Origin: Chryseobacterium contaminans
GTDB lineage: Bacteria > Bacteroidota > Bacteroidia > Flavobacteriales > Weeksellaceae
DNA length: 64,000 bases
Direction: 5' to 3'
NCBI RefSeq assembly: GCF_001684955.1
Contig: NZ_MAYF01000223.1
Span: forward strand, 29,779 to 93,778
Positions within the stretch are counted from its first letter, which is position 1; each line of letters begins with the position of its first letter. Made by a program: the position numbers and the translations under genes. Positions 36,989 to 40,763 of this stretch are shown one piece after another. The notes under the pieces were generated by a model. The model made no database searches. It saw only the letters and a program-made list of their open reading frames with translations, and had not been told where the DNA came from.

Positions 36989-38275
36989 ATGTCAGACAAC
37001 AAAGTAATATTGAATTACGACGGTAATTCATATGAATATCCAATTGTGGATAGTACTATCGGAGACAGAGGGATTGATATTTCAAAATTAAGAGACCAGA
37101 CAGGTTTAATCACTCTGGATTTAGGTTACAAAAATACAGGAGCTACTATTAGCGACATCACTTACTTAGACGGAGATAAAGGAGAATTATTCTACAGAGG
37201 TTATCCAATTGAGCAAATTGCTGAGAAATCTAACTTCACAGAAGTAATGTATCTTTTATTACATGGAGAATTACCTACTCAGGATCAATATACTTCTTTC
37301 GAGAACAATATTAAAAAATATAACTTCATCGCAGACGAGATGAAAAAAATCATTGATGTTTTTCCTCGTTCTGCTCACCCTATGGGAGTTTTATCTTCTT
37401 TAACTTCTGCTTTAACTGCTTTCAACCCAAAAGCGGTTAACGTAAACTCTAAAGAAGAAATGGATCACGCTGCTGAGCTTATGATCGCTAAGTTCTCTCA
37501 CCTTTGTGCTTGGACTTACAGAAAAACTCAAGGCTTACCATTAAACCACGGTGATAACAACCTAAACTACGTAGAGAATTTCTACAAAATGGCATTCAGA
37601 TTACCAAACGCAGATTTCGAAATCGATCCGGTAGTTGTAAATGCATTAGATAAATTATTAATCCTTCACGCTGACCACGAGCAAAACTGTTCTACTTCTA
37701 CAGTAAGAATGGTAGGTTCTGCTCACACAGGTCTTTTTGCTTCTATCTCTGCTGGGGTATCTGCACTTTGGGGACCACTTCACGGTGGTGCTAACCAGGC
37801 TGTAATCGAAATGCTTGAGCTTATCGAAAAAGATGGTGGTGATGTATCTAAATACGTTGCTAAAGCTAAAGATAAGAACGATAGCTTCCGTTTAATGGGA
37901 TTCGGACACAGGGTTTACAAAAACTTCGACCCAAGAGCGAAAATTATCAAGAAAGCTGCTGATGACATCCTTAAAGCATTAGGAATCCAGGATAAAGCTC
38001 TTGACATTGCAATGCAGTTAGAAAGAGTAGCGCTTGAAGATGAATACTTCGTAGAAAGAAAACTATATCCAAACGTAGATTTCTATTCAGGTATCATCTA
38101 CAGAGCATTAGGAATTCCAACAGAAATGTTTACAGTAATGTTTGCATTAGGAAGACTACCAGGATGGATCTCTCAGTGGAAAGAAATGAGATTGAAAGGA
38201 GACCCGATCGGAAGACCAAGACAGGTTTACCAAGGTGCTCAACAAAGAAACTATATAGATATCGCAAGCAGATAA
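36989..38275 (+). CDS. gltA: Citrate synthase
   Basis: The 428-aa product is a type I (hexameric-type length) citrate synthase. It shows LPLNHGDNNLNYVENFYKM, the oxaloacetate-binding LILHADHEQNCSTSTVRMVGSAH, GPLHGGANQAVIEML and MGFGHRVYKNFDPRAKI, with catalytic His and Asp regions intact. It condenses acetyl-CoA with oxaloacetate to start the TCA cycle. It follows eno on the same strand. Confidence 0.98.
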   Translation: MSDNKVILNYDGNSYEYPIVDSTIGDRGIDISKLRDQTGLITLDLGYKNTGATISDITYLDGDKGELFYRGYPIEQIAEKSNFTEVMYLLLHGELPTQDQYTSFENNIKKYNFIADEMKKIIDVFPRSAHPMGVLSSLTSALTAFNPKAVNVNSKEEMDHAAELMIAKFSHLCAWTYRKTQGLPLNHGDNNLNYVENFYKMAFRLPNADFEIDPVVVNALDKLLILHADHEQNCSTSTVRMVGSAHTGLFASISAGVSALWGPLHGGANQAVIEMLELIEKDGGDVSKYVAKAKDKNDSFRLMGFGHRVYKNFDPRAKIIKKAADDILKALGIQDKALDIAMQLERVALEDEYFVERKLYPNVDFYSGIIYRALGIPTEMFTVMFALGRLPGWISQWKEMRLKGDPIGRPRQVYQGAQQRNYIDIASR

Positions 38276-38329: not shown

Positions 38330-38570
38330 TATATGAGGAGCTATTTCCCGCTATCCACTCATACTCCTCGCGCCAGGCCTCTCCAGCGTAAGCTGCGGGG
38401 TAACCGTTTCTATCGGGGCTAGGATATAAGCAATGAATAATAAGTAATGAGATTAGCCTGATAACTAATGAAGTCATATACAAACAATGCTTCTGGCAAA
38501 ATAAATTAAACATCTGTGAAAATTTGCGTTATCTGCGGGAAACTTTAAACATTAATGCTTTTCACAAATA
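38330..38570. repeat. GC-rich intergenic segment resembling a dispersed chromosomal repeat
   Basis: The stretch 38335-38420 (AGGAGCTATTTCCCGCTATC ... CAGCGTAAGCTGCGGGGTAA ... TATCGGGGCTAGG) is much richer in GC than its surroundings and contains the hairpin CAGC-GTAA-GCTG. A second piece reads CATCTGTGAAAATTTGCG and TTATCTGCGGGAAAC near 38510-38545. From memory both resemble short sequences repeated between genes in Chryseobacterium and Flavobacterium genomes. No coding frame is convincing. The remaining 38571-38690 shows nothing recognisable. Confidence 0.4.
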
Positions 38571-38690: not shown

Positions 38691-38714
38691 AAACCTGCTT
38701 AAAAAAGCAGGTTT
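38691..38714 (-). terminator. Terminator of the peptide 2 - peptide 1 unit
   Basis: AAACCTGCTT, AAAA, AAGCAGGTTT form a perfect 10 bp stem 9 bases after the peptide 1 stop on the minus strand. The following minus-strand sequence is TCTTTTATC. Confidence 0.75.
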
Positions 38715-38722
38715 AGTATTTT

Positions 38723-38881
38723 TTATGGGCAAACGCAGTTACCACATGTCCAGATTCTGCAGCTGCCATCTTCATTCCATTCACAGCAGTATCTTTCTCT
38801 GTTTATTCCTCCGATTACCGATTTTTGTTGCTCTCTTCCTAATTTTTGTGCATTTTTTAGCACAGGATTTTTCTTGTTCAT
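38723..38881 (-). CDS. Double-glycine leader peptide 1 (bacteriocin-like / RiPP-type precursor)
   Basis: A 52-aa frame starts at ATG 38881-38879 and ends at TAA 38725-38723. Residues 1-25 (MNKKNPVLKN ... REQQKSVIGG) form a GG-type leader. The 27-residue core, INRERYCCEWNEDGSCRIWT followed by CGNCVCP, holds six cysteines. The leader is identical to that of peptide 2 apart from one residue. GG leaders are cut and exported by C39-peptidase ABC transporters; no such transporter is in the window. Selection on the cysteine frame across three paralogues shows it is a real gene. Product activity (antimicrobial, signalling, surface) is unknown. Confidence 0.85.
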   Translation of the reverse strand: MNKKNPVLKNAQKLGREQQKSVIGGINRERYCCEWNEDGSCRIWTCGNCVCP

Positions 38882-38920
38882 GATTTTGATTTTTGATGTT
38901 AATAGTTAAGTTTTGATTTT

Positions 38921-39085
38921 TTATGGGCATTGGCATCTATCACAAGTATAGAGCGTGCATTTTCCTGACGGATCCCATTCACAGCATCTTTTGCCTGTTG
39001 AGATTCCTATTCCACCTACTACTGATTTTTGTTGCTCTCTTCCTAATTTTTGTGCGTTTTTTAGCACAGGATTTTTCTTGTTCAT
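38921..39085 (-). CDS. Double-glycine leader peptide 2 (bacteriocin-like / RiPP-type precursor)
   Basis: A 54-aa frame starts at ATG 39085-39083 and ends at TAA 38923-38921. The leader ends QQKSVVGG at residue 25. The 29-residue core (IGISTGKRCCEWDPSGKCTL then YTCDRCQCP) shares CCEW-x3-G-x-C-x4-C-x2-C-x-CP with peptide 1. Only 39 bases separate its stop from the peptide 1 start, with no hairpin between, so peptides 2 and 1 probably form one transcript. The bases just before both start codons are almost identical, which indicates a recent tandem duplication. Confidence 0.85.
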   Translation of the reverse strand: MNKKNPVLKNAQKLGREQQKSVVGGIGISTGKRCCEWDPSGKCTLYTCDRCQCP

Positions 39086-39139
39086 GATTTTGATTTTTTG
39101 ATGTTGATAGTTAAGTTTTAAACAATATAATTTAATGAT

Positions 39140-39221
39140 AAATTATATCACTAATATAGGAATTTATTTTGTTTAAAAAAGAATTTTTTATTATTATGTA
39201 TGTGAAATTTAATAAGTTGTA
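39140..39221 (-). promoter_or_regulatory. Conserved upstream block of peptide 2
   Basis: The plus-strand block 39140-39161 (AAATTATATCACTAATATAG plus GA) recurs with one mismatch at 39610-39631 upstream of peptide 3, at 54 and 53 bases from the respective start codons. A second conserved stretch (ATTATGTATGTGAAATTTAA to GTTGTA, 39193-39221) recurs at 39664-39693. No perfect TAnnTTTG is present, so these may be sites for a dedicated regulator or alternative sigma factor. Outside the block, 39222-39348 shows nothing recognisable. Confidence 0.55.
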
Positions 39222-39348
39222 TTGTATTAAATAGAATTTCAATAATTTTTTATCATAAAATAAAGAAGATAGAGTACGACTCAGAAAGGTGAAATTGAAA
39301 GTTACTTTTACAAAAAAACTTGTACATATAATTTGATGTAGGCTTATT

Positions 39349-39382
39349 AAAAAAGCCGTCTCAAAATTCATGAAACGGCTTT
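39349..39382 (-). terminator. Terminator of peptide 3
   Basis: On the minus strand AAAGCCGTTTC pairs with GAGACGGCTTT across a 9-base loop (one G-U pair), followed by a T run (plus-strand A39349-A39354). It begins 10 bases after the peptide 3 stop. Confidence 0.85.
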
Positions 39383-39391
39383 CTCAGTATT

Positions 39392-39556
39392 TTATGGACA
39401 ACCACATCTGTTACATACCCACAGGAAGCATGATCCGGTTACATCGTCCCATTCACAACATTTTCTGGGGCCGGTGAATTCACCTCCGATAATAGTTTTT
39501 TGCTGGTCTCTTTCTAATTTTCGTGCGTTTTTCAGCACAAGGTTTGTCTTGTTCAT
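39392..39556 (-). CDS. Double-glycine leader peptide 3 (bacteriocin-like / RiPP-type precursor)
   Basis: A 54-aa frame starts at ATG 39556-39554 and ends at TAA 39394-39392. The leader (MNKTNLVLKN ... RDQQKTIIGG) ends with GG at 24-25. The core (EFTGPRKCCEWDDVTGSCFL then WVCNRCGCP) keeps all six cysteines, CCEW and the terminal CP. It is the most diverged of the three and forms its own unit with promoter block and terminator. Confidence 0.85.
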   Translation of the reverse strand: MNKTNLVLKNARKLERDQQKTIIGGEFTGPRKCCEWDDVTGSCFLWVCNRCGCP

Positions 39557-39609: not shown

Positions 39610-39693
39610 AAATTATATCACTAATGTAGGATGTTAAATTGTAAAAAAAATCTATTTTTCCATTCTTATGTAGATGAAATGTAGTAGGTTGTA
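39610..39693 (-). promoter_or_regulatory. Conserved upstream block of peptide 3
   Basis: The block AAATTATATCACTAATGTAG plus GA (39610-39631) and the distal stretch 39664-39693 (TTCTTATGTAGATGAAATGT to GTTGTA) match the region upstream of peptide 2 at equal spacing. Both copies point the same way as the peptide genes. Confidence 0.55.
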
Positions 39694-39848: not shown

Positions 39849-40763
39849 ATGAGACTAAACATTAAAAACGAAACGGGGAGGCTGAGATCAGTAGTTCTGG
39901 GCCAGCCTAATTCATTGGGACCAGTGCCCACGCTAGAGGAAAGTTATGACGCTAAGTCGTATTACTCAATCGAACACAACATTTATCCTAAAGAAGAGGA
40001 TATTATCAATGAAATGAACGCTTTTGAAGCGGTATTAAAAAAGTATGACGTTGAAGTACTGCGTCCAAGCATTATTGAAGATTACAACCAGGTCTTTTCA
40101 AGAGACGTTGCCTTTGTAATTGATGACAAAATGATTATTTCCAACGTAATTGCAGACAGAGCAGATGAGCAGGAAGCATACAAAAGTGTTTTTGAAAAAG
40201 TGGCCTGGAGAAAGATCATCAATCTTCCGGAAACAGCCCATATTGAAGGTGGTGATGTTATTGTATGGAATGACTTCCTTTTCATCGGAACCTGCTTCAG
40301 TGAAGATTACAGAAACTATAAAACGGCAAGAACCAACGAGTATGCCATTGAAATTTTAAAAGAATACTTCCCGAAGAAAAGAATCATTGATCTTGAACTG
40401 AAGAAAAATGATAAAGTACCCTTTGAAGGAATCTTACACCTGGACTGTACTTTCAATCCGGTAGGAGAAGACAAATGTATTATCTACAAAAACGGATTCG
40501 TAGACGAAAGCGATTATCGCCTTATCATCGATATTTTTGGTGAAGAAAACTGCTTCCACATTAACGATGAAGAAATGTTTGAAATGTTCCCGAATATTTT
40601 CTCTATTTCTCCGGATGTAGTAGTTTCAGACAAAGCATTTACAAGAATGAACAACCATTTAAGAGATGTGTGGGGAATGACCGTAGAAGAAATTCCTTAC
40701 AGAGAAATTTCTAAAATGGGAGGTCTGCTGAGATGCTCTACAATGCCTCTTGTAAGAGAATAG
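39849..40763 (+). CDS. Amidinotransferase-fold hydrolase (dimethylarginine dimethylaminohydrolase family)
   Basis: The 304-aa pentein-fold protein shows SRDVAFVIDD, HIEGGDVIVW, the catalytic His in ILHLDCTFNPVG and the nucleophile Cys in GGLLRCSTMPLV. Family enzymes hydrolyse the guanidino or ureido group of arginine derivatives. The exact substrate is not fixed by sequence; the neighbour ctlX suggests arginine or citrulline breakdown to ornithine. It precedes ctlX by 81 bases. Confidence 0.82.
   Translation: MRLNIKNETGRLRSVVLGQPNSLGPVPTLEESYDAKSYYSIEHNIYPKEEDIINEMNAFEAVLKKYDVEVLRPSIIEDYNQVFSRDVAFVIDDKMIISNVIADRADEQEAYKSVFEKVAWRKIINLPETAHIEGGDVIVWNDFLFIGTCFSEDYRNYKTARTNEYAIEILKEYFPKKRIIDLELKKNDKVPFEGILHLDCTFNPVGEDKCIIYKNGFVDESDYRLIIDIFGEENCFHINDEEMFEMFPNIFSISPDVVVSDKAFTRMNNHLRDVWGMTVEEIPYREISKMGGLLRCSTMPLVRE

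Follow-up and report, generated by a model that had tools for sequence, protein, structure and literature searches.

Short peptides with a double-glycine (GG) leader and a cysteine-containing core are already known from Bacteroidota, and four described systems come closest to the locus reported here. Bacteroidetocins are class II-type bacteriocins of Bacteroidales with a GG leader and four cysteines, for which no immunity gene was found (PMC6671954). Their four-gene cluster is described there as encoding a TM protein, the peptide, a thiol oxidoreductase, and a double-glycine-peptidase ABC transporter (PMC6671954). Two NCBIfam models, NF047798 (leader_Chryseo, "bacteriocin-like protein") and NF047792 (CCPGW family, "putative bacteriocin"), cover further short cysteine-rich precursors. 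Prochlorosins of picocyanobacteria are lanthipeptides made by one promiscuous enzyme, ProcM, from many precursors, and their function is described as unknown. Within Chryseobacterium itself, the precursor ChrA is reported to be modified by the MNIO enzyme ChrH with ChrI (PMC10214503).

The locus considered here lies in a 64,000-nt stretch of Chryseobacterium contaminans DNA (the window) and encodes three small precursors, the trio. The likeness to bacteroidetocins lies in the GG leader, even cysteine number, association with a peptidase-ABC transporter and a thiol oxidoreductase, lack of a detected immunity gene, and occurrence in Bacteroidota, whereas the four bacteroidetocin genes stand together and the trio, with its six-cysteine core of 27-29 residues, is far from its putative export hub. 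No cluster of the bacteroidetocin type adjoins the trio, a similar set being present just at that hub (locus L020), and none of the database searches made here linked the two; killing of Bacteroidales is a further mark of bacteroidetocins. The trio shares leader register and short cysteine-rich precursors with NF047798 and NF047792 but scores under both cut-offs. The prochlorosin parallel is one enzyme serving many precursors, although the trio would acquire disulfides from a VKOR-thioredoxin fusion and not lanthionines from ProcM. ChrA likewise has a cysteine-containing precursor, but ChrA-type precursors are reported to end in CPACGMG and to be clustered with their enzymes, and the trio shows neither feature (PMC10214503). 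Literature searches at title and abstract level, with most subscription journals and some preprints outside their reach, returned no description of this core, its cysteine parity, or its hub linkage. The kind of molecule, a GG-leader disulfide peptide of bacteriocin-like type, is known from bacteroidetocins and leader_Chryseo, and what is new is the core family and the predicted arrangement of dispersed precursors with one hub.

All three genes lie on the minus strand, and each encodes a 25-residue GG leader followed by a short core. Precursor 1 (38723..38881, 52 codons) has a 27-residue core, INRERYCCEWNEDGSCRIWTCGNCVCP, whereas precursor 2 (38921..39085, 54 codons) and precursor 3 (39392..39556, 54 codons) have 29-residue cores, IGISTGKRCCEWDPSGKCTLYTCDRCQCP and EFTGPRKCCEWDDVTGSCFLWVCNRCGCP, respectively. 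These coordinates and lengths agree with a preliminary description of the region, and the leader (residues 1-25) and core pattern it proposed, CCEW-x(3,4)-G-x-C-x4-C-x2-C-x-C-P-stop, with its six cysteines, its EW pair, and its closing CP, fit all three open reading frames (ORFs). Identity to precursor 1 is 69% for precursor 2 and 60% for precursor 3. Precursor 2 lies 39 nt upstream of precursor 1, and the two are likely one transcript; precursor 3 is a separate unit. A hairpin scan placed a terminator-like hairpin of the intrinsic type 3′ of precursor 1 (38691..38714, minus strand), and a hairpin followed by a T-run, AAAGCCGTTTC / GAGACGGCTTT, was recognized by eye 3′ of precursor 3 (39352..39382, minus strand); the latter is missing from the scan because its 9-base loop exceeds the limit of 8.

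The flanking genes are syntenic and run on the plus strand: the citrate synthase gene gltA (36989..38275; Pfam PF00285) on one side and a gene for an arginine deiminase/DDAH-like protein (39849..40763; PF02274/PF19420) on the other. Six neighboring proteins were scanned, comprising enolase, citrate synthase, two DDAH/arginine-deiminase-like proteins, S-adenosylmethionine decarboxylase, and a DUF4178 protein. No transporter or maturase is among them, in line with the earlier view that no C39 transporter or maturation enzyme is adjacent, and no immunity gene was seen near the trio.

The family extends well beyond this genome. A search of 5.8 billion proteins returned 26 protein clusters (E 3.8e-27 to 8.1e-14), and every source name that bears an organism is Chryseobacterium; clusters P0001, P0002, P0021, and P0024 are without a source and may contain the window's own proteins. 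A genome scan matched 78 loci, one of which (L129, 21 bits) was left out as not a family member, leaving 77 loci of other genomes, among them L052 from C. jejuense DSM 19299, with 93 further members. All 93 lie between gltA and the DDAH-like gene, 270-1635 nt from the latter, with one copy in 66 loci, two in seven, three in three, and four in one. Searching Chryseobacterium genomes, as the preliminary description had suggested, found the family in at least 125 of 173 (E ≤ 1e-8), and in the taxonomic family as a whole at least 125 of 320 genomes are positive, all in one of the 33 genera searched; in both searches candidates were scored only in part for some genomes, so misses are possible. The three genes had been called unannotated, which holds only in part: public databases already list several homologues under the name "hypothetical protein", and another is entered there as "RSAM-modified peptide". 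The trio core falls below the cut-offs of the profile libraries searched.

Residues C35, C36, C45, C55, and P56 are invariant in 95 distinct coding sequences, and C50 and C53 are kept in 94 of the 95. Six core cysteines and a C-terminal CxCP end are found in 95 of 96 family members, the exception being the third copy in locus L086, which has only four and ends in an acidic tail. Nei-Gojobori (NG86) dN/dS, calculated from the 268 of 4465 pairs that are 85-99% identical, is 0.092 for the whole precursor, 0.106 for the leader, 0.190 for the spacer, 0.078 for the core, and 0.050 from CC to the end, and these low values come with high dS. The family is genuine and has long been established in the genus. 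Purifying selection (dN/dS about 0.09) bears out the earlier claim of a selected peptide family, and the broken frames or near-neutral ratios that would have spoken against it did not occur, a match in one genome (G047) having the sole internal stop among the matches listed.

Upstream of the coding sequences, a 22-nt element, TTCMTAYMTTAGTGATATAATT, is conserved in the family. In the window it is present on the minus strand as TTCCTATATTAGTGATATAATT before the precursor 2-1 unit (39141..39162) and as ATCCTACATTAGTGATATAATT before precursor 3 (39611..39632). The form TA[TC][ACT]TTAGTGATATAATT lies, with at most three mismatches, about 61-74 nt 5′ of the ATG in 90 of 95 members; the remaining five (window precursor 1, L052_6001, L103_6001, L114_5372, and L114_6001) sit 39-82 nt behind another copy. 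The element matches assigned to L052_6001 and L103_6001 fall within the upstream gene and were discarded as spurious. After removal of duplicates, the 95 members gave an alignment of 85 sites with 11 invariant columns. This is best described as a DNA element and a predicted promoter or regulatory site, and its TATATTAG portion resembles the Bacteroidota -7 box, TAnnTTTG. An RNA hairpin suggested by eye from the dyad TATAATTT...AAATTATA was rejected, as RNAalifold returned 0 pairs and 0 kcal/mol for the 85 sites.

Genome-wide, the 14-base heart of the element, TTAGTGATATAATT, occurs with at most one mismatch at eight sites, compared with seven for the reversed control. The trio accounts for two of the three exact copies, and the third is intergenic, on contig C17, so the element appears to mark the family and not a large regulon. 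When the element weight matrix was run over the 250 nt 5′ of each of 61 GG peptides in the genome, two trio genes scored 37.5 and 35.0 and precursor 1 was without a site. Among the other 58, peptides on C333 (12.2) and C108 (5.5) are conspicuous. A further eight rows score above the 99th percentile (-15.7) obtained with 600 random stretches: C13:3504, C2:67678, C135:42981, C8, C349:8270, C349:8468, C317, and C344:75582, the two C349 rows being one site. Since the random stretches came from the same loci, coding DNA included, these promoters may be related in some way, although the scan of these 61 upstream regions does not demonstrate a shared regulon. By eye, a different motif, AGAGTAGG, lies about 20-35 nt 5′ of the ATG in eight of the 61 GG peptide genes (contigs C57, C35, C13, C179, and C344), possibly a second promoter or leader type.

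GG leaders of the class II bacteriocin type, exported through C39 transporters, typically carry hydrophobic residues at positions -4, -7, and -12. The family has GG and L at -12 in all 95 distinct coding sequences and I/V at -4 in 93, with Gln at -7 in 94. The trio leader also has Ala at -15, and many other leaders of this genome have Leu where the trio has Ala and Gln. Profile scores are low: the trio reaches 13.3, 13.5, and 14.0 bits against a cut-off of 23.5 for leader_Chryseo, a profile that matches 14 of 86 family members (E ≤ 0.01). With the CCPGW model, which matches 16 of the 86 at the same threshold, precursors 1 and 3 obtain 11 and 13.1 bits against 80 and precursor 2 has no match. 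Pfam PF14406 (Bacteroid_pep) gives 15.8 bits against 25 for precursor 1 and nothing for precursors 2 and 3.

The trio is one clade among 61 GG peptides scattered over the genome. This repertoire was compiled from 62 leader_Chryseo matches at E ≤ 10, 30 of them above the cut-off, by removing four weak ones (E 1.8-3.5) and adding three from the family profile. The 61 cores form 36 BLAST clusters, and cysteine spacings differ widely among peptides with the same leader type. After the GG, 33 peptides have six cysteines, 22 have four, three have eight, and one each has two, three, and five; the number is even in 59 of 61 cores, and 34 of the 36 clusters contain even counts only. Random placement of the same cysteines yields a mean of 30.5 even cores and a maximum of 43-45 in 20,000 draws, and a narrower set of 38 peptides defined by regular expression contains 37 even ones. 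Other ORFs of 35-100 codons were tried as a control and rejected (19 even and 42 odd with at least three cysteines, 19 and 4 with at least four), because such dependence on the threshold makes them an unfair yardstick; random placement was used and gave the same answer. Pairing of cysteines, as in disulfides, predicts such a prevalence of even counts among cores unrelated to one another.

Some members of this repertoire can be described individually. Two four-cysteine relatives of the trio core (CCE..GxC..W....CP), at L019 4446-4580 and 4922-5062 on contig C135 (minus strand), keep the C-terminal CP and adjoin groES/groEL-like genes (names by eye). An array of six GG peptides on contig C190 (L022 5300-6747, minus strand) has the spacing C-xn-C-xn-CC-xn-C-xn-C, which we take to resemble that of knottins (inhibitor cystine knots). 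Another GG peptide, on contig C108 (L037 72-356, minus strand), has a core that opens with glycine-rich GGVxGGVG-like repeats and closes with four cysteines.

A genome-wide look for C39 ABC transporters, as the preliminary description had proposed, found two, both away from the trio, in accord with its prediction that export would act in trans. One belongs to the hub on contig C57, where the genes run in the order VKOR+Thioredoxin_4 fusion, GG peptide, C39-ABC, GG peptide, HlyD. The second (L021, contig C1) stands with an HlyD gene, and a TolC-like gene and a gene for a large protein with a GG-type start were recognized there by eye. The hub arrangement recurs: among the 25 loci that scored best for the fusion, a set that includes this genome, every one has the C39-ABC gene next to it, and a pattern search also found a GG peptide between the two in 15.

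Across the 173 genomes of the genus, a C39 match is present in 169 and the VKOR-thioredoxin fusion in at least 162 (E ≤ 1e-20); for five of the 11 genomes negative for the fusion, only part of the candidates was scored. Both are present in every one of the 125 family-positive genomes, and none of the 11 without a fusion match carries the family (Fisher 3e-7, in a test that ignores phylogeny). Because C39 is near-universal, its co-occurrence weighs little. Peptides matching leader_Chryseo (E ≤ 5e-4) occur in 160 genomes, with 1 to 46 in each, these being lower bounds from at most 49 scored candidates per genome. They are missing from 10 of the 11 genomes without the fusion and from three of the 162 with it (Fisher 6e-13, again ignoring phylogeny). 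The exceptions are G068, which has four peptides and no fusion match, and G088 and G137 (strong fusion) and G029 (weak fusion), which have no peptides. By comparison, peptides are missing from three of the four genomes without C39 and from 10 of the 169 with it; since C39 tracks them less well than the fusion does, it is the oxidase, and not C39 as such, that tracks the peptides. A single C39 match was counted by eye in 16 of the 125 family-positive genomes; among the matches listed, it lies beside the fusion on one contig in five of these (G008, G043, G058, G103, and G155), and in G087 the C39 and fusion genes are at the ends of different contigs.

The trio cores are probably exported in trans by the hub C39 transporter and oxidized to three disulfides, a predicted mechanism that draws on the GG leader, the hub gene row, the co-occurrence of fusion and peptides, and the even-cysteine rule. 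The C39 domain of the hub would recognize the trio leader, and the precursor would be cut after Gly25, releasing the 27-29-residue core. The core would pass the C39 ABC transporter and HlyD and leave through an unlinked outer-membrane channel; its three disulfides would be introduced by the VKOR-thioredoxin fusion encoded beside the transporter. Two points count against the hub as the trio's exporter: the second C39 transporter on contig C1, and the atypical leader, whose low leader_Chryseo score, Ala at -15, and Gln at -7 suggest that the hub may not export it. An AlphaFold2 model built from 86 sequences (mean pLDDT 68, pTM 0.26), which was not used as evidence, contains a predicted beta-hairpin in the core (residues 30-35 and 41-46) and has no PDB fold match at E ≤ 0.001.

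To our knowledge, large sets of disulfide-rich mini-proteins are not a recognized feature of Gram-negative bacteria. One tentative reading of the whole repertoire, to which we give somewhat less than an even chance, likens it to venom or defensin sets: dozens of disulfide-rich mini-proteins, scattered over the genome and for the most part unrelated, would pass in trans through one hub of C39-ABC, HlyD, and VKOR-thioredoxin. The set would include some whose cysteines are spaced much as in knottins, and the CCEW...CxCP family would be a member of deep conservation with a promoter element to itself. If one hub does process about sixty peptides, it would be a single genetic switch for testing the role of the entire set, the genus would be a source of stable peptide scaffolds, and the VKOR-thioredoxin fusion would gain a concrete substrate set. 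The combination of parity and co-occurrence also offers a general way to tie orphan GG peptides to a distant exporter.

What the mature peptides might do is a separate matter. Extracellular antagonism of other bacteria is the first choice, at close to even probability, by analogy with the bacteroidetocins, which likewise combine a GG leader with paired cysteines and a thiol oxidoreductase and for which no immunity gene was found. Against antagonism, strong purifying selection together with a fixed synteny would be uncommon in a bacteriocin engaged in an arms race, and no immunity gene is visible near the trio. The same strict synteny and strong selection make a close second of a secreted signaling or housekeeping peptide, whether a pheromone-like molecule or one directed at the envelope of the producer itself, which would use the same hub and be no weapon. 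This alternative, which we consider less likely than not, would account for the single chromosomal position in 77 of 77 loci, a dN/dS of 0.05 over the cysteine-rich end, the dedicated upstream element, and the missing immunity gene, but the six scanned neighbors include no receptor or regulator, the trio's own members have diverged to 69 and 60% identity, and a signal would not usually belong to a group of about sixty divergent peptides.

A different product is conceivable if the cysteines are modified in trans by an MNIO, radical-SAM/SPASM, or lanthionine enzyme and form no disulfides. A profile search of the genome found one MNIO (PF05114), one SPASM protein, and two LanC-like matches, one of them over the cut-off and one below (contigs C5, C33, C63, and C157), which probably serve other RiPP pathways; because these proteins could act on the trio's cysteines, they weigh against the disulfide reading and leave some room for such a RiPP. 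One homologue bears the name "RSAM-modified peptide", and ChrA supplies a precedent in the genus. This outcome is nevertheless improbable, as none of these enzymes is next to the trio, the core is without the C-terminal motif of ChrA-type precursors, and the even-cysteine rule and VKOR linkage point to disulfides. Less probable still is an intracellular, metallothionein-like mini-protein in which the CxxCxC of the cysteine-rich core binds zinc or copper: the GG leader is conserved under selection, the family is linked to an export and thiol-oxidation locus, and peptides with the same leader have many different cysteine spacings. The sole PDB sequence match, to a mercuric transport protein, would favor metal binding but was rejected as too weak (E 0.18).

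Chance ORFs or an RNA element that merely looks coding, as antisense ORFs of 52 and 54 codons over precursors 1 and 2 and an upstream element conserved as DNA might suggest, have a negligible probability, since the selection data (low dN/dS with high dS) exclude chance, the element is structureless in RNAalifold, and Rfam gives nothing above gathering score over the trio region. An Rfam Trp_leader candidate overlapping precursor 1 was rejected at 19.8 bits, 41 being required. Between precursor 1 and gltA, window positions 38340-38424 (minus strand) nearly match the Flavo-1 RNA (RF01705), reaching 40.9 bits (E 6.6e-7) where the gathering score is 42.
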